From a bacterium (GTDB lineage Bacteria; Pseudomonadota; Alphaproteobacteria; Rhizobiales; JAKIUO01), in contig JAAETJ010000327.1 in the NCBI GenBank assembly GCA_024228495.1, positions 1 through 39,459 on the forward strand: 39,459 nt of DNA, written 5' to 3'. Position numbers and translations under genes: made by a program. Shown one piece after another: positions 4,020 through 39,459 of the stretch (positions are counted from its first letter, which is position 1; every line of letters begins with the position of its first letter). Under the pieces are notes generated by a model, which saw nothing but the letters and a program-made list of their open reading frames with translations, made no database searches and was not told where the DNA came from.

Positions 4020-4850
4020 ATGACGATACGTATTTTTCTGTCCATGCTTGTTGCGGGACTGTTCCTGAGCTTTGCTTCCGTCAGTGGTGTATCAGCATTA
4101 AATTCTGATGATTTTGTGACTGCCCCGTCGATTAAAAAACAACGCTATATAAAGAAACGCGTCAAACGCAAAACGGTCAAAAATCATAAAATTCGCAAGA
4201 CCTCGAAGAAACGGACGTCTTTAAGGCTTGAAAAGACCTCTCGTCTTCGGGCTAAGAAGCGTGTGATCCGGTATAAGAGAAATGGCAAGAAAGTCACACG
4301 TGCTTCTTTGAGCTTGAATAGTATCAAGAATGCCCGCCACGCCAAACTGACCTCCAGGGGCCGTATGAGCGTTGCCAAGGATACCAGAAGAAAGACCGTT
4401 CGTAGTTTTGGTAGCCGTGTCAGTTATAAATATCGGCCCGGCACTGTAGTGTTGAGCAATTATACGCGTCGTTTGTACTATGTCGTGCGCCCTGGCAAAG
4501 TCATTACCTACCCCATCGCCACTCCGCGTCCCGATGAAGTCTGGTCAGGCAGCACCAAAATTACAAAAAAGAAGCTCAACCCTGATTGGTACCCAACACC
4601 AGCCATGCGCGAGAAGAATCCCGACCTCCCCGAAAAGGTCGCGGGTGGATCATCTGCAAACCCATTTGGCAAACGTGCCTTGTATCTGGGCAGCTCGCTC
4701 TACCGTATTCATGGTACCAACCGCCCCGGCTCAATCGGCAAATCGGCTTCTGGTGGCTGCTATCGGATGCGCAATGGTGATATCGCCAAGCTTTGGCGTA
4801 TGGTCAGGTCAGGCACGCCAGTTGTCGTCCTGACCCGCAAAAAGATTTAA
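4020..4850 (+). CDS. Secreted L,D-transpeptidase, YkuD fold
   Basis: This 276-residue protein has a signal peptide (hydrophobic residues about 4-25), a very basic Lys/Arg-rich region (about 40-130), and a C-terminal YkuD catalytic domain (about 140-275). The active-site signature is present as a conserved His in YRIHGTN and the sequence SASGGCYRM, with nucleophile Cys at residue 247. Such enzymes form 3-3 cross-links in peptidoglycan or attach outer-membrane proteins to it in the periplasm. The basic region probably binds the wall or anionic polymer and is longer than usual. ATG 4020 follows TTGGAGACG at a proper distance. It lies alone, about 215 bp after the sensor kinase on the same strand; a shared role is not shown. 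Confidence 0.9.
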   Translation: MTIRIFLSMLVAGLFLSFASVSGVSALNSDDFVTAPSIKKQRYIKKRVKRKTVKNHKIRKTSKKRTSLRLEKTSRLRAKKRVIRYKRNGKKVTRASLSLNSIKNARHAKLTSRGRMSVAKDTRRKTVRSFGSRVSYKYRPGTVVLSNYTRRLYYVVRPGKVITYPIATPRPDEVWSGSTKITKKKLNPDWYPTPAMREKNPDLPEKVAGGSSANPFGKRALYLGSSLYRIHGTNRPGSIGKSASGGCYRMRNGDIAKLWRMVRSGTPVVVLTRKKI

Positions 4851-4996
4851 TTCTCACCAATGATAAACTAGCGGCGCTGCCGGAAGACCCGTGATGTTTT
4901 ACATTTAAGAAAGATCTCCCGGAGTACTTTTACCGCTCGAAGTACAACCAAAAAGATATTTCATGTCGAAGACGACAAATCATGTGAACATAAACT

Positions 4997-5760
4997 GATT
5001 ACCCCACGTTTCCGCCAATTTCAGACTGTCATATGTTCTTGGAAGGGGAGCGCAGTGACACGTAGGCCAGCCGTTCGATCATATCGGCCATTTTCGAGCA
5101 CCTGTTGAAGCGATATTCAAACTCTGCCAGATAGCGCGCAACACAGCGCAGATGAATGCGTTGCGGGCGGTTCTCACGCTTCTCGACGACGGCAATGAAA
5201 GGGGTTTTGTTTTCGCTGCCACGCCCGCTTTTTCCTTCTTTTTTGCCCCCTATATAAGCATTGTCCATCTCAATTTCGCCTTCAAGCATTTTGCCTCCAT
5301 CACGTTCGCGCATAACCTCGCCCGGCTTGCTGCGAAGCGCCTTGGCGGTGTTCCATTTGACACCCGGTTTGCGTGATAGAGACAGGCTTAAAATTCCAAA
5401 TTTTTCCTGTGTTATCATATAGATAAGAAGTAACTAATTTGACGAGAGAGTTTTTCGACCCCTGGAAAATTTTGCTGGCTTTGACAGAGGTTTGATGATG
5501 ACATTCATTACATTGCAAAAGCTTGTGGTTTTCCAACCGGCAGAACTGTTTGCTATCCCATTTCGGGCATCTGAAGCCATCCGGCCAGCGCAGATTTTCA
5601 AGTTCAGTCCGACATTGATCCTCGGTGCTGAAACGGGCGTAAAAATCGATGAGGCTAAGTCCTTTTTGAAACTGAACAGTATTCCTTGCCATTAATTATC
5701 TTCTTGTTCCATATCGATAGAAAATAATTACGGCATGGATGCGGAAACGTCGGGGTAATC
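4997..5760 (-). mobile_element. Decayed IS1595-family element with both inverted repeats
   Basis: The left end GATTACCCCACGTTTCCGC (4997-5015) matches the reverse complement of the right end (5741-5760), apart from one inserted G. The repeats enclose a broken transposase gene. I could not find a convincing 8-bp target duplication: the flanks are CATAAACT on the left and ATGAAAAT on the right. At about 760 bp it is shorter than the usual IS1595 length because of an internal deletion. Confidence 0.8.
5029..5692 (-). pseudogene. IS1595-family transposase, frameshifted and internally deleted
   Basis: The gene reads on the minus strand from ATG 5692. The N-terminal part (about 92 residues) has the IS1595 opening NTVQFQKGLSL and a zinc-ribbon region. 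One ribbon cysteine appears lost, since CPKW stands in place of CPxC. Near 5417 the frame shifts, and similarity continues in the frame of 5418 (ITQEKFGILSLSLSRK, then EIEMDNAYIGGKKEG with the first catalytic Asp). At about 5135 there is an in-frame join that removes most of the catalytic core, so the C-terminal RYLAEFEYRFNR motif follows IHLRCV directly. The protein cannot be active. Confidence 0.88.
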
Positions 5761-5795
5761 ATGAAAATGAAAGGAAGGAGTTGTTGGGGGCCTGG

Positions 5796-7253
5796 CTATT
5801 TAATGCCGTTAAAGCACATATATTTTATTTCAAGAAATTCTTCACAGCCATATTTGGACCCTTCGCGGCCAAGTCCCGACATTTTGACGCCGCCAAAGGG
5901 GGCAACCTCGGTGGAAATCAGTCCGTCATTAATGCCTACCAGCCCCACTTCCAAGGCCTCGGCGACGCGCCAGATACGGCGCATGTTTTCCGAGTAAAAA
6001 TAGGCCGCTAGTCCAAACGGCGTGTCATTGGCAAGCTCAATGGCCTGTTCTTCGGTGTCAAATTTGAATATTGGCGCAACGGGGCCAAAGGTCTCTTCGC
6101 GTGCCACTTTCATATCGAATGTTGCATCGGCGAGAACCGTTGGCTGGAAAAAGGTGCCGCCAAGCTCATGGGGCTTTCCACCAGTAATGACCCGCGCCCC
6201 TTTGGAGACAGCGTCCTCGATATGCTCCACGACTTTTGAAATCGCGTTGTCGTTGATCAACGGACCTTGCGTGACATTACCAGACAAAGCGGGACCAACG
6301 CTGAGCGCTTCAACACTTGTAGCTAGTTTTTTGATGAAAGCCTCATAGACGCCCGACTGCACCATCAAGCGGTTTGCACAGACACAAGTTTGACCGGCAT
6401 TGCGATATTTGGAGACCATTGCCCCGGCAACGGCTTCATCGAGATCAGCATCGTCAAAGACTATAAAGGGAGCGTTGCCACCAAGTTCAAGCGACAGTTT
6501 CTTTATGGTTTTGGCACATTGTTCCATCAAGATTTGCCCGACCCTCGTGGAGCCGGTGAAAGATAGTTTGCGCACCGTCGGATTGCTGGTGAGTTCACCG
6601 CCGACTTCGCTGGTCTGGGTGGTCGGGAGGACATTGAAAATGCCGGGCGGAAATCCAGCCTCATCCGCTAATTGCGCCAGAGCAAGAGCGGATAGCGGCG
6701 TGTCGGGGGCGGGTTTGATGATGACCGGGCAACCAACCGCTAAAGCTGGTGCGCATTTACGGGTAATCATGGCGGTGGGGAAATTCCACGGCGTAATCGC
6801 CGCCACCACGCCGATTGGTTGTTTTATGACAATAATGCGTTTGTCGCTGCTTGGTGCGGGGATGGTGTCGCCATAGATCCGTTTGGCTTCTTCGGCGAAC
6901 CATTCAACAAACGAGGCGCCATAGGCGACTTCGCCAAGGCTCTCGGCCATTGGTTTGCCTTGCTCAAGACTAAGGATCATTGAAAGGTCTTGTTGATTTG
7001 CCATGATGAGCTCGAACCAGCGCCGCAAAATATCTGATCGCTGCTTGGCGGTGAGGGCGCGCCATTCAGGCCATGCCTGATTCGCCGATTCAATGGCTTT
7101 GCGGGTTTGTACGGCTCCCATATCAGCCACGCAAATGATCTTGTTATTGTCAGCTGGATTAAGTACGGGGAAGGTCGCACCATTGTCTGCACCAAGCCAT
7201 TGGCCGTTGATATATGCATCTTTTCGTAGCAATTTCTGGTTGGTAAGATTCAT
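5796..7253 (-). CDS. gabD: NAD(P)-dependent succinate-semialdehyde dehydrogenase
   Basis: This 485-residue aldehyde dehydrogenase is close in length and motifs to GabD. It shows the Rossmann nucleotide-binding region with FTGSTRVG, the general base Glu256 in LELGGN, and catalytic Cys290 in AGQTC. The C-terminal region includes EETFGPVAP and FGGVKMSGLGREG. The expected reaction is oxidation of succinate semialdehyde to succinate in GABA or related breakdown, in the cytoplasm. Related enzymes act on glutarate semialdehyde or other aldehydes, so the substrate is inferred. ATG 7253 lies in a 126-bp gap divergent from the SLC13-type permease. The neighbouring IS remnant ends 35 bp from its stop codon. 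Confidence 0.9.
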   Translation of the reverse strand: MNLTNQKLLRKDAYINGQWLGADNGATFPVLNPADNNKIICVADMGAVQTRKAIESANQAWPEWRALTAKQRSDILRRWFELIMANQQDLSMILSLEQGKPMAESLGEVAYGASFVEWFAEEAKRIYGDTIPAPSSDKRIIVIKQPIGVVAAITPWNFPTAMITRKCAPALAVGCPVIIKPAPDTPLSALALAQLADEAGFPPGIFNVLPTTQTSEVGGELTSNPTVRKLSFTGSTRVGQILMEQCAKTIKKLSLELGGNAPFIVFDDADLDEAVAGAMVSKYRNAGQTCVCANRLMVQSGVYEAFIKKLATSVEALSVGPALSGNVTQGPLINDNAISKVVEHIEDAVSKGARVITGGKPHELGGTFFQPTVLADATFDMKVAREETFGPVAPIFKFDTEEQAIELANDTPFGLAAYFYSENMRRIWRVAEALEVGLVGINDGLISTEVAPFGGVKMSGLGREGSKYGCEEFLEIKYMCFNGIK

Positions 7254-33826: not shown

Positions 33827-35275
33827 ATGCGCCAGGCTTGTCGTTTTCTAGAATGTGCTTTTAATGGTTCGTTTATTTTCAAGAGCTGGCAACTAATCAT
33901 TCCTGTCGTGGCCATTATGTTTCTGGTTGTTTCTGGTTTTTCATATGCCCCAAAAGCTCTGGCGGCGAAAGCCAACCAGATCCGCATTGGTGGCGACTAT
34001 AATTATTTAAGAGTGCCCGCAGGATCTGGCTATCGCTGGTGTGAAGAGAGTTGCCGTAATGACGCCAGATGTAAATCCTGGACCTTTCTCAAGCCAAGTC
34101 GACAGTGCCGCCTGAAACGCTTCGTCGCGCCCGCTCGTCCCAGCAAATGTTGTATCTCAGGGGTGAAGAAGGTTTCTCGAAAGAAAAACCGCCGGGAAAT
34201 TTGTGCTGATTTTGCCAGCCGGGCCGTCGATCAGCACGATGAAAACCTGGCGCGCAAATGCGGTTATCGTGGTGAAAAATGGAGCGAGCGCTATAAAAAG
34301 CATTTTCGCGGTTGCCTGTCTTTGAGCGCCAAACAGCGCAATACCCTCACGGTTGATCGCAAGAACGCCTTGCAGCGCTGTGAGAAAAACCGGCACCGTA
34401 CCAATCGTGAATGTCAGCGGTTTGCACAAACAACAGAAGATATCGTCAATTCGGCAGGGCGCAATAATTGTCAATTGACGCCCGCCAAATGGCTTGGCGA
34501 TTTTAATACGGCCTTTAGCTGGTGTCGCCGCAGCAAGGATGATGCCAATGAGGGCGTTTTAAGCCACGCGCGTGCCGCTTTGTCTTCTTGCCTGCGGCGA
34601 GGAGGCGGACCCTTTGTGAAGCGCTGCGACAATTATGCGCAAAGGGCTGTGAAACAATATGGTAAGGCACGCAGCAATGAATGTGGTTTTTCTGGCAGCC
34701 GTTGGCATGATGATTATCGCGCTCATTATCAATGGTGTTTAAAGGTTGATCCTTGGGATATCCGCAATGAAACGCAGGTGCGCGCCGATACGCTCGAGAG
34801 ATGCGTTGCGCAAGGCGGTAGCGGTGAAGAAGGTAAAGTTGCTTGCGATCACTATGCGCGTCTGGCAAGTGAGCAAACGCGCTCCAATCGCAAACAGAAT
34901 TGTGGTCTCAAGGGGCGGCGCTGGCTGGCTAATTATGATCGCCATGTTTCCTGGTGCGCTAAAACGTCAAAAATCAATCGTGATGACGAACTGAAGTATC
35001 GCGAAGCCGAACTTTCGAAATGTTTCGAGCGTGGCGGCGACGCTTTCATTGAAGCCTGCGATGTCTATGCGGTGCGCTCGCTTCGCCAATTCGAAAAGAA
35101 CGTTGCGCGGAGCTGCAATTATCGCGGCAAATACTGGCATGATAGCTATATTGGTCACTATAAATGGTGTGCCAAGGCATCGACGGGACGCCGATCTCGC
35201 AAGATGCTGGAGCGCAAGGCGCTGCTTTCGACCTGTAAATTCGGTTTTAAACTGCCGTTTGGCCGCAAGCGCTAG
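33827..35275 (+). CDS. Exported PAN/Apple protein with five cysteine-rich repeats
   Basis: This protein is about 482 residues from ATG 33827; the open frame reaches back to TTG 33731 without support. A signal or anchor segment spans about 22-45 and ends near ALAAK. A PAN/Apple domain (about 53-115) follows, with six Cys and the bacterial ending KCCISGVK. Then come five repeats of 70-73 residues with first Cys at 126, 196, 267, 340 and 411. Each has the pattern C-x2-[FY]-[AS]-x14-C-x6-W-x10-C-x21-C, without one insertion or deletion. The even cysteine count suggests two disulfides per repeat in the periplasm or outside the cell. The protein is very basic. PAN domains bind protein or glycan; the repeat is unknown to me. 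The next gene is a longer paralogue. Confidence 0.85.
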   Translation: MRQACRFLECAFNGSFIFKSWQLIIPVVAIMFLVVSGFSYAPKALAAKANQIRIGGDYNYLRVPAGSGYRWCEESCRNDARCKSWTFLKPSRQCRLKRFVAPARPSKCCISGVKKVSRKKNRREICADFASRAVDQHDENLARKCGYRGEKWSERYKKHFRGCLSLSAKQRNTLTVDRKNALQRCEKNRHRTNRECQRFAQTTEDIVNSAGRNNCQLTPAKWLGDFNTAFSWCRRSKDDANEGVLSHARAALSSCLRRGGGPFVKRCDNYAQRAVKQYGKARSNECGFSGSRWHDDYRAHYQWCLKVDPWDIRNETQVRADTLERCVAQGGSGEEGKVACDHYARLASEQTRSNRKQNCGLKGRRWLANYDRHVSWCAKTSKINRDDELKYREAELSKCFERGGDAFIEACDVYAVRSLRQFEKNVARSCNYRGKYWHDSYIGHYKWCAKASTGRRSRKMLERKALLSTCKFGFKLPFGRKR

Positions 35276-35293
35276 ACCGACAAAAGAGGGGGT

Positions 35294-35340
35294 GTATTTC
35301 CCGGAAATACCACACTATTTGGTGAGGACGGTATTTTTTT
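35294..35340 (+). terminator. Overlapping alternative hairpins ending in a T-run
   Basis: GTATTTCC (35294-35301) can pair with GGAAATAC (35303-35310). The second arm overlaps AAATACC (35305-35311), which can instead pair with GGTATTT (35330-35336), followed by T to 35340. The two folds exclude each other. A simple weak terminator after the first PAN gene is the plain reading; an attenuator for the second gene is the bolder one. The one-base loop of the first hairpin is tight, so it would really form with 7 bp and three loop bases. Confidence 0.4.
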
Positions 35341-35526
35341 GCCTATGTAGCGGCTTTTTTGAAGGTTTAGACGCTCCAGGGATCAAAAAAATGCCGTATC
35401 CCGTTTTACTTTTGCCAAACTGCTGACATACTATTGTTAAAAACTGCTATTGGTCGGGTTCGCTTTGTACCCGATACTAGGAAGAATGCGCCAATTATTC
35501 AAAGGCGTTTCAATGAGGAGCTCTGC

Positions 35527-38046
35527 ATGCAGCCGTTTAGAACAACCTTCCAATTTTTCAAGGGAGCGCTCATTGTCTTCTTTGCTTTGATAGCTATTTT
35601 GTTTGCGCCGACCGGTAATGCCATAGCTGAAGAAGTAGATAGCCTGAGAATTGGCGGTGACTACCAGTTTTTGACTTTGCGGGTTGGAGATGACTTCAGA
35701 GTTTGCCGACGCGCTTGTAAAGATGATGCGAGCTGCAAGGCCTGGACCTTCATCAAGGAACGCACGAAAAAGAAAGAGGGGATCAGTTTCAATCTTGGTC
35801 CTGATCTCAATATTGGTTTTGGTGGTAAAAGAGAAGTTATTCCTCCCCAATGCCGTCTCAAGCATAGTGTTGGTCCAAAGCACACCAATGAATGTTGCAC
35901 ATCCGGCGTCAAGCAGGTCGTCCAACGCACGCGCCCCAACAAGGCAGAGCGCTGTGCCAATTACGCAGAATCGGCTCTTGAACAACAAGATAAAAACCTG
36001 ACCCAGCGCTGTCACTTTCGCGGGACCCGGTGGCAGGCCAGTTATCGCAATCATTATCGCTGGTGCATGGATAGCTCACGACGGTCTTCGGTGCGCGAAA
36101 CAGAAGTGCGCGATGATAAACTTCGAGATTGCCGTGATAATCGCCGCGTGCGCCGCGATCGCCAGTGTGATCGCTATGCCAGCACCGCAATGGATGTCAT
36201 TGCGCAGGCTGACACCCATAATTGTCGTTCGTCCAACCGCGAATGGGACAAAGAGCATGAGCGGGTTTATCAGTGGTGCCTTGACAATGGCAGAGCCAAA
36301 CGCCGTGATGTTCTGGAGCGGGCACAATCGAAACTTGCCTCATGTATCCGGCGCGGTGGCGGTGCCCGTTCAGAGCGCTGTGAAAACTATGCGGAAGATG
36401 CGCTAGAGCAGGTTAATCGAGCCAAGAAGAATGATTGCCGGGCTCGCGGCACGACTTGGGCTGGGGATTTCAAGACACATTATAAAGAATGTCGTAATCT
36501 AAACGGTCGTCAGATGCGCGCCAAAACGCAATTGCGCAAGAGTTTCATAAACCGTTGTATCCGCCGCGGTTCACAGCCAAGGATCATGGAAACCGGATCG
36601 GTAGAAGTGCGTCAGAGAAATGCCCGTCAATGGCATAGCGTACGGTTCTCGAAAAGATATCGAGATCCCGTTGTGATCATGGGACCTGTCTCCTTTAACG
36701 AAAATGAACCGGCACATGCCCGTGTACGCAGTGTTTCATCGCGTGGCTTTGAATTCCGTATTGAGGAATTTGGCAAAGACGGCACTCATGCCCGCGAAAG
36801 CCTTTCTTATATGGTGATCGAGAAAGGCATTCACGATTTTGGCGGCACCATCATTGAGGCCGGCACCATTTCTACGAGCGCAGATATGGTCGATCGCGAC
36901 TGGTCACCGGTCCGCCTGTTCAGCAGATGGAGTAAGGCTCCCATTGTGCTTGCCCAGACCCAGACCTTCAAGAGCAGTGATCCTGTGAATGCCCGGATCA
37001 AAAATGTCACCAGTCGGCAGTTTGAAGTCACGCTGAGTGAGAAGGAAAGTGATCGCCGCGGACATGCACGAGAAGTTGTGGGCTATGTGGCGATATCGCA
37101 AGGTCGTCACCGTCTTGATGGCGGTCAAGCGAATGACGTTGGCGTATGGAGTGGACGCGTCTCGCGTGCGAATAACAAATGGCGCAAGATTGACTTCCCC
37201 AATCGTTTTGGTAGCAACCCTGCCGTGTTTGCAAGGGCTCAGTCTTCAAATGGGGCTGACACATTTGATGTGCGCTACCAGAGATTGACGTCGCGCCGTG
37301 TCGAGTTGCGTTTGCAAGAAGAGCAAAGCAAGGATCGTGAAACCAACCATACCAATGAAGTACTTGGTGTGATAGCCATGCCGTTTGGCAGCTATTGGGC
37401 CACCTCATCGCGCTCCATAGATGACCAAATTGCCAAAGAACGGCGTCCTGTTCCCGCCCCGCGCCCGGTTGATTCCTCATCTGGCGGCGGTGCCAACCTG
37501 GTAGATTGCCGTGATTATTCGAGGCTGGCTGTGGCACAGTTCGATCGCGCAAGACGTAACTCGTGTGGTTTCATTGGCACTAACTGGCATGGTGAGGCCA
37601 ATCGGCATCGTCGCTGGTGCCGTCGCAATGGATTGCGGGCTGCTGATCGCTTTATTGTCAAGCACAGAAACCAGTTACGCAATTGCCTCGCTAGGGCTGA
37701 TAATCAGCCCGTCCAGGAGAGTGAATGGATATCGATTGGATGCGCCAGAGTTGCCTTCAAGAAGGATAGAGAAAGTTTCAGGCTTGATCGTAACAAGGGG
37801 CGGTTTAGCGCTCTGATGCTGAAGGGTGGAAAGGCCAGGTTGTCGATCTATGAGGTTAAAGTAAACTACGCCAATCGTACTTCGCAGGTTCTGTCCTATC
37901 GAGGGAAATTGGGACGTGGCGATTCAACTGGGCCTCTTGATCTCAAAGGGAATAAGAGCTTTATTTCCAAGATTGTCGTGACTGCCAAGGCGAAGCTGTC
38001 ATTCCCACCCAAGCAAGGTCGTTTGTGTGTGCTAGGCAAGCGCTAG
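35527..38046 (+). CDS. Exported multidomain PAN, cysteine-repeat and lectin-like protein
   Basis: This 839-residue paralogue of the preceding protein starts at ATG 35527 behind GAGGAG. The order is: signal peptide (1-35); PAN/Apple domain (about 42-137, six Cys, with a basic insert at about 80-107); three cysteine repeats with first Cys at 143, 214 and 285. Three similar beta-rich units follow at about 355-450, 450-540 and 540-630. Each has a W near its start, a PVV/PIV/PAV strand, an N-rich turn and a conserved HA/HT..E region. After a Pro/Ser/Gly linker comes a fourth cysteine repeat (661-720), then a C-terminal domain (about 735-839) starting EWISIGCARVAF. The beta units recall H-type lectin domains, so glycan binding is a guess. 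All four cysteine repeats keep the same spacing as the neighbour. Confidence 0.85.
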   Translation: MQPFRTTFQFFKGALIVFFALIAILFAPTGNAIAEEVDSLRIGGDYQFLTLRVGDDFRVCRRACKDDASCKAWTFIKERTKKKEGISFNLGPDLNIGFGGKREVIPPQCRLKHSVGPKHTNECCTSGVKQVVQRTRPNKAERCANYAESALEQQDKNLTQRCHFRGTRWQASYRNHYRWCMDSSRRSSVRETEVRDDKLRDCRDNRRVRRDRQCDRYASTAMDVIAQADTHNCRSSNREWDKEHERVYQWCLDNGRAKRRDVLERAQSKLASCIRRGGGARSERCENYAEDALEQVNRAKKNDCRARGTTWAGDFKTHYKECRNLNGRQMRAKTQLRKSFINRCIRRGSQPRIMETGSVEVRQRNARQWHSVRFSKRYRDPVVIMGPVSFNENEPAHARVRSVSSRGFEFRIEEFGKDGTHARESLSYMVIEKGIHDFGGTIIEAGTISTSADMVDRDWSPVRLFSRWSKAPIVLAQTQTFKSSDPVNARIKNVTSRQFEVTLSEKESDRRGHAREVVGYVAISQGRHRLDGGQANDVGVWSGRVSRANNKWRKIDFPNRFGSNPAVFARAQSSNGADTFDVRYQRLTSRRVELRLQEEQSKDRETNHTNEVLGVIAMPFGSYWATSSRSIDDQIAKERRPVPAPRPVDSSSGGGANLVDCRDYSRLAVAQFDRARRNSCGFIGTNWHGEANRHRRWCRRNGLRAADRFIVKHRNQLRNCLARADNQPVQESEWISIGCARVAFKKDRESFRLDRNKGRFSALMLKGGKARLSIYEVKVNYANRTSQVLSYRGKLGRGDSTGPLDLKGNKSFISKIVVTAKAKLSFPPKQGRLCVLGKR

Positions 38047-38811: not shown

Positions 38812-39459
38812 CTATCTAATCACCGGACTATCGATACATATGCCCACGACGCGCAATGTAATAATATCACTTTCATGCTCAGACCGGGCTCGAAGATATA
38901 TATATCGGCCCTTTATAAGTTTGCCTGGTGTGGCCGTGACCCATTTGTTACGCCTGCTTACGCTTGTTTTTTTGGGGACCCCTTGATATTGAAATCGCAC
39001 AGAGCGACTGTATCCCTTGTCGGCAATCGTAAATTTGGTCAAGACATTGTCACCAAAACAAGCCTGAATTTTGACACCAGGCCCCCAGTTCCGACTTTTT
39101 GCAAAGAGTTTTATATGCCCTCGTTGACGGCCTTTGCTGTTATTTGCCTCTATCATTGCGCCCATGGTTTTTGTGTAGCTTTTGGCAGGTGCTGGTGTGG
39201 TGTCCGGGATGTAATCGCTCTCAGCATAAGACCGGGCTTCCCACTGACTATCGAAATCATAGGATTCAGTGTCTTCGGTTTTGTCTTTCGTATCTTTCGT
39301 ATCTCGCGTATCTCGCGTATCTCGCGTATCTCGCGTATCTCGCGTATCTCGCGTATCTCGCGTATCTCGCGTATCTCGCGTATCTCGCGTATCTCGCGTA
39401 TCTCGCGTATTCGGGGTGGGGCGGGCAACCGCGGGGCGCATCTGGCGCTCAGATTGTCT
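38812..39459 (-). CDS. Repeat-bearing protein, 5' end outside the window
   Basis: The frame is open to the window edge on the minus strand, so the first residues are missing; an internal ATG at 39441 would give 209 residues. A low-complexity segment of one NTR and eleven DTR triplets, then two DTK, comes first and is followed by an acidic stretch. The C-terminal 110 residues look folded, with alternating beta-strand-like pattern (GHIKLFAKSRNWGPGVKIQA to TLRVVGICIDSPVIR) and two Cys. I do not recognise the domain. The charged repeat probably forms a flexible linker. Confidence 0.6.
   Translation of the reverse strand, partial: RQSERQMRPAVARPTPNTRDTRDTRDTRDTRDTRDTRDTRDTRDTRDTRDTRDTKDTKDKTEDTESYDFDSQWEARSYAESDYIPDTTPAPAKSYTKTMGAMIEANNSKGRQRGHIKLFAKSRNWGPGVKIQACFGDNVLTKFTIADKGYSRSVRFQYQGVPKKTSVSRRNKWVTATPGKLIKGRYIYLRARSEHESDIITLRVVGICIDSPVIR
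39303..39410. repeat. Twelve perfect copies of a 9-bp tandem repeat
   Basis: CTCGCGTAT is repeated twelve times without a mismatch over 108 bp. Two imperfect copies (CTTTCGTAT-like) lie just before it at about 39285-39302. On the minus strand it encodes the tripeptide Asp-Thr-Arg. As the unit is a multiple of three, a change in copy number alters linker length but not frame. Confidence 0.95.

Follow-up and report, generated by a model that had tools for sequence, protein, structure and literature searches.

A four-cysteine repeat family in predicted secreted proteins of Hyphomicrobiales

The nine cysteine-rich repeats encoded by two plus-strand genes in the window (the whole 39 459-nucleotide stretch of DNA analysed, contig JAAETJ010000327.1) are copies of a real domain family of ~60 residues, which appears to be undescribed in Pfam, NCBIfam, PHROGs and PDB. 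The repeat probably serves outside the cell as a module for binding or as a scaffold. For the fuller reading, we infer with about an even chance of being right that it is an undescribed module of this kind and that PAN-headed, cationic, adhesin-like chains are built from it.

Nine copies of the repeat in two genes

A pattern search of both translated open reading frames gave an exact fit to C-x2-[FY]-[AS]-x14-C-x6-W-x10-C-x21-C in nine of nine copies, five in the product of gene 1 (ending at 35275) and four in that of gene 2 (ending at 38046). All nine have the cysteine spacing 18-17-21 (C-x18-C-x17-C-x21-C). When the residues of the same two proteins were shuffled, this spacing alone gave 0.0055 and 0.0005 matches per shuffled protein, far below one, which bears out the nine invariantly spaced copies reported in the initial annotation. 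Its other counts were reproduced: the Trp and the aromatic-small pair are present in 9/9 copies and a Trp directly precedes the third Cys in 7/9, with low identity between copies (15–42% pairwise, mean 28%). Its link of 10–13 residues between flanking cysteines is true inside each run of copies, but not for copy 4 of the gene 2 product, which is 316 residues away from copy 3 with an H-type-lectin-like segment between them. The repeat itself was thus correctly described, whereas the surrounding signal peptides, PAN domains and lectin-like segment had been missed.

Gene 1 (33827..35275) encodes a 482-residue predicted secreted protein with a PAN domain and five repeats. The ATG at 33827 is its likely start and has its counterpart in the start of the L056 orthologue. 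By eye, a signal peptide can be read at 33827..33964 (hydrophobic core, AxA site KALA/A), and after it comes a PAN/apple domain (33980..34162) with six cysteines and a C-C-I-S-G motif; its match to Pfam PAN_4 (E 3.4e-5, 24.2 bits) falls just under the curated cut-off of 27. The repeats, each supported by pattern and profile matches, lie at 34202..34381, 34412..34591, 34625..34804 (the copy modelled by AlphaFold2), 34844..35023 and 35057..35236. Repeat 4 is of a C-[DEN]-H-[YF]-A-R type that is also found as the second repeat in many relatives. Beyond its final repeat Cys, the gene 1 product carries a short basic, aromatic tail (35237-35272). Such tails are also seen in L059, L033 and L037 and in many members; examples in PAN-repeat proteins are KFGFKLPFGRKR, KKIFKF, LKFIFKF and RLFGKIGIQWR. 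This C-terminal tail is possibly a sorting or membrane-contact signal.

Gene 2 (35527..38046) encodes an 839-residue protein, also predicted to be secreted, and probably starts at the ATG at 35527, which has GAGGAG upstream. A signal peptide read by eye in the translation (35527..35628) precedes a PAN domain with an insertion (35641..35907), whose PAN_4 match (E 2.3e-6, 28.0 bits) exceeds the curated cut-off of 27. Repeats 1–3 (35953..36132, 36166..36345 and 36379..36558) are separated from repeat 4 (37507..37686), all again matched by pattern and profile, by the H-type-lectin-like segment (36559..37503), in which about three copies of ~95 residues can be seen by eye. Searched alone, this segment passed the Pfam H_lectin (PF09458) cut-off of 24 (E 1.1e-6, 29.1 bits), whereas the score was 23.7 bits when the whole protein was scanned; protein 1 and the other scanned members of the family gave no H-type lectin match. 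The C-terminal domain (37687..38043) holds the last two cysteines and is weakly DUF2541-like (Pfam E 0.036, below cut-off), with a comparable weak match in L088. In L056 the gene 2 orthologue (4575-7084) is read as two overlapping frames split inside the lectin-like segment, the cause being a genuine frameshift or an error in the metagenome assembly. Cysteines are even in number in each part of both mature proteins (20 repeat and 6 PAN in protein 1; 16 repeat, 6 PAN and 2 C-terminal in protein 2).

Spread and conservation of the family

A first profile, built from eleven copies, recovered the full set of nine and, at each of two other loci of the same genome, one strong copy. The repeat was present in at least 4 of 385 genomes of a class sample (the window's own and 3 further) and in at least 41 of 199 Hyphomicrobiales genomes; a later, enlarged profile, used to search 398 genomes of the order, found it in at least 87 of them and in at least 48 of 141 genera, all these genome counts being lower bounds, as the scoring covered a limited number of candidates in each genome. 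None was seen outside the order in a phylum sample, where the three matching genomes of 399, including the window's own, all belong to it. As to phyletic spread, which the initial annotation had proposed to check, the repeat is common within this order. Relatives with the repeat are named as Hyphomicrobiales, Hyphomicrobiaceae and unplaced Alphaproteobacteria metagenome assemblies. Hyphomicrobiales is a large order with many plant symbionts and environmental bacteria.

The consensus is C-x2-[YF]-A-x2-A-x2-Q-x3-N-x4-C-G-[FYL]-x-G-x-R-W-x6-H-x2-W-C-x10-E-x3-R-x3-L-x2-C. Across 190 distinct copies, Cys1, 2, 3 and 4 were kept in 99, 97, 100 and 97%, respectively, Trp27 in 97%, His34 in 86% and Arg53 in 85%. 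Copies without a Cys in its column mostly have one displaced nearby. Of a total of 137 distinct copies, 95 have the exact spacing. The repeat region had no significant profile match in Pfam, NCBIfam or PHROGs, two profiles found no match among PDB sequences, and our literature searches found no paper on the family; the claim that no named family has this pattern therefore stands for those databases. A mobile origin of the repeat proteins was rejected: protein 1 gave no tblastn hit against plasmids or phages, nor did two single-repeat members against plasmids, and the family had no match in viral contigs. A fold search in viral proteins likewise gave nothing at E 0.001.

Predicted fold and cysteine pairing

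An AlphaFold2 model of one repeat (gene 1 repeat 3, with 39 copies) was compact and confident (pLDDT 90.3) and had three helices, at about repeat positions -1 to 17, 31–40 and 43–63. The small, structurally constrained and disulfide-compatible domain proposed in the initial annotation agrees with this model and with the near-invariance of the four cysteines. In a model of the full-length protein, PAN strands and five largely helical units can be made out, with a low pTM of 0.34. Both the three-helix fold and the secretion of the proteins are predicted.

We infer that disulfides form within the repeat, and how they pair, the conserved cysteines and their even numbers being indirect evidence. 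The helix lengths in the model speak against the suggested Cys1–Cys2 and Cys3–Cys4 pairing, since they place these cysteines near opposite ends of long helices. For the remaining pairings we ran a mean-field coupling analysis (~146 effective sequences), from which the cysteine columns were removed because invariant columns give artefacts. The best diagonals gave a weak signal for parallel helices 1 and 2 and antiparallel helices 1 and 3 and helices 2 and 3, and weakly fit the 1–4/2–3 pairing over 1–3/2–4. In L100 and L101 both Cys2 and Cys4 are displaced, a joint shift that mildly points to 1–3/2–4. The top coupled pairs, R26–E49 and Q11–R53, involve conserved residues and may owe their signal to joint loss in degenerate copies.

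The repeat was compared with known systems. The N-terminal domains of both window proteins match PAN_4 (PAN/apple; Pfam PF14295, PF00024) close to its cut-off, above it in protein 2 and just under it in protein 1, and in Foldseek they point to the apple lectin SML-2 at high probability but with weak E-values (prob 0.98–1.00, E 0.2–0.8; 1.00 and 0.2 for gene 1). The modelled repeat, in contrast, consists of helices throughout, and no PAN model matches any of the nine copies. Twin CX9C (CHCH) proteins have short helices and two disulfides and lie outside the cytoplasm. The repeat would share these features, its disulfides being putative, but has no sequence match to them, three helices rather than two, and C-x18-C and C-x21-C; two C-x9-C motifs are absent, the spacing being 18, 17 and 21 in 9/9 copies. 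Against PDB structures the best Foldseek hit to the repeat had E 5.2, with no fold match at E 0.001 by a method that is weak on small helical domains. An extracellular domain so far undescribed, with a new, small disulfide-stapled three-helix fold and spread across Hyphomicrobiales in PAN-headed bead arrays dedicated to surface recognition and with position-specific repeat types, is a tentative proposal whose truth we consider rather doubtful.

Architecture, genomic context and selection

We surveyed the architecture of 83 non-redundant open reading frames, none of them cut at the 5′ end of its locus. By a simple rule, a hydrophobic, signal-like segment is present in 74 of the 83, and several others have one but lack an ATG in the tested stretch. 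The share of proteins with a PAN-type cysteine motif rose with repeat number: 0 of 44 for a single repeat, 4 of 13 for two, 11 of 13 for three and 13 of 13 for at least four. Partner domains are mostly of extracellular recognition types: PAN in 13 of 29 scanned (49.7 bits in the relative L050), H_lectin, and the extracellular modules WSC (L034) and FG-GAP (L088), which in relatives share polypeptides with the repeat as distinct domains and are partners only. The two window proteins are strongly basic (pI 9.9 and 10.2).

We favour an extracellular binding or spacer role because of the predicted secretion, the PAN, lectin, WSC and FG-GAP partners and the high pI. The repeat would be an autonomous secreted domain of three helices and two disulfides. 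Its conserved residues may form the core and internal bonds (R26–E49 and Q11–R53 being candidate pairs), with the remaining surface variable, and since the kept residues have this look, a rigid-bead role is suggested. Strung behind PAN, and in gene 2 also around the lectin-like segment, such beads would give basic extracellular chains with a pI of about 10. Glycans or glycoproteins may be recognized by the PAN and lectin parts, with the array of cationic beads acting as a spacer and as a many-site binder of anionic surface polymers; overall, these would most likely be surface or secreted adhesins or binding proteins. However, fusions to a caspase domain (Peptidase_C14; L105:2099-3499, one repeat copy near the C-terminus) and to TPR (L106) do not resemble adhesins, the basic charge of some single-repeat proteins is mild (pI about 8.4), none of the members found has an established function, and at the full-length pTM noted above the chain shape is not fixed by the model.

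Many members are predicted secreted single domains of ~65 residues, which could be antimicrobial or effector-like peptides acting on other cells, with the arrays as their multimers. We consider this very improbable: no immunity-like partner gene was seen among the shared neighbours, and throughout the genus both genes occur in the same gene order and evolve under purifying selection. Within-genus dN/dS was 0.08–0.10 for gene 1 and 0.12–0.17 for gene 2, and selection therefore maintains both genes. These low values across both genes also speak against an array of protease inhibitors or protein traps, in which, by analogy with tandem Kazal or BPTI domains, each bead would offer a variable loop. 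A tandem array of disulfide-compatible beads that share little sequence identity would suit such a role, as would the caspase-domain fusion, but no hypervariable exposed loop is evident, and the long loop linking helix 1 to helix 2 holds the conserved G21, G24, R26 and W27; we regard this reading as improbable.

The adhesin-like reading has also to be set beside that of a cell-envelope structural protein, which would sit in the periplasm or at the outer membrane, bind peptidoglycan or LPS and, with its neighbours, contribute to envelope stability. The basic charge would fit, and in relatives the PAN-repeat genes lie beside a divergent MATE transporter gene (7 distinct genomes of 5 genera, L035 and L059 being the same locus) and a convergent IalB gene (9 genomes of 2 genera), with DUF937 kept nearby in the window genus and L059. 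The window genes, however, adjoin EamA, DUF937 and DUF7670 rather than MATE or IalB, opposite-strand neighbours are weak evidence for shared function, and the lectin, WSC and FG-GAP partners point outward. We judge an envelope role unlikely, if less so than the inhibitor array. In L059 (554-9203), DUF937, MATE, two PAN-repeat genes and IalB occur together, followed by cytochrome-oxidase-subunit-like genes.

The genes flanking the window pair (EamA, DUF937, DUF7670 and a tripeptide-run gene) keep their order in three relatives of the same genus. The last of these, a minus-strand gene (38812-39441), contains a 9-base tandem repeat (39289-39410; 13.6 copies, 98% match) that codes for an Asp-Thr-Arg run. 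In L056, L057 and L058, matches to the gene are confined to the sequence around the run, and in L058 another tripeptide is repeated at this place; the stretch looks hypervariable.

We also compared protein 1 with L054, a relative placed in a different taxonomic family. Its repeats 1, 2, 3 and 5 were nearest to the L054 repeat at the same position (45, 28, 52 and 42% identity), repeat 2 by a hair only, whereas repeat 4 was nearer to L054 repeat 3 (43%) than to repeat 4 (38%). On these values, fixed repeat types by position are no more than suggestive.

Implications

Extracellular cysteine-rich bead arrays are already known in general. The novelty here is the repeat family, and possibly its fold, rather than the bead-array principle. 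A curated model of the repeat would annotate many secreted proteins together, and the association of repeat number with PAN across the order offers a handle on what the chains bind.
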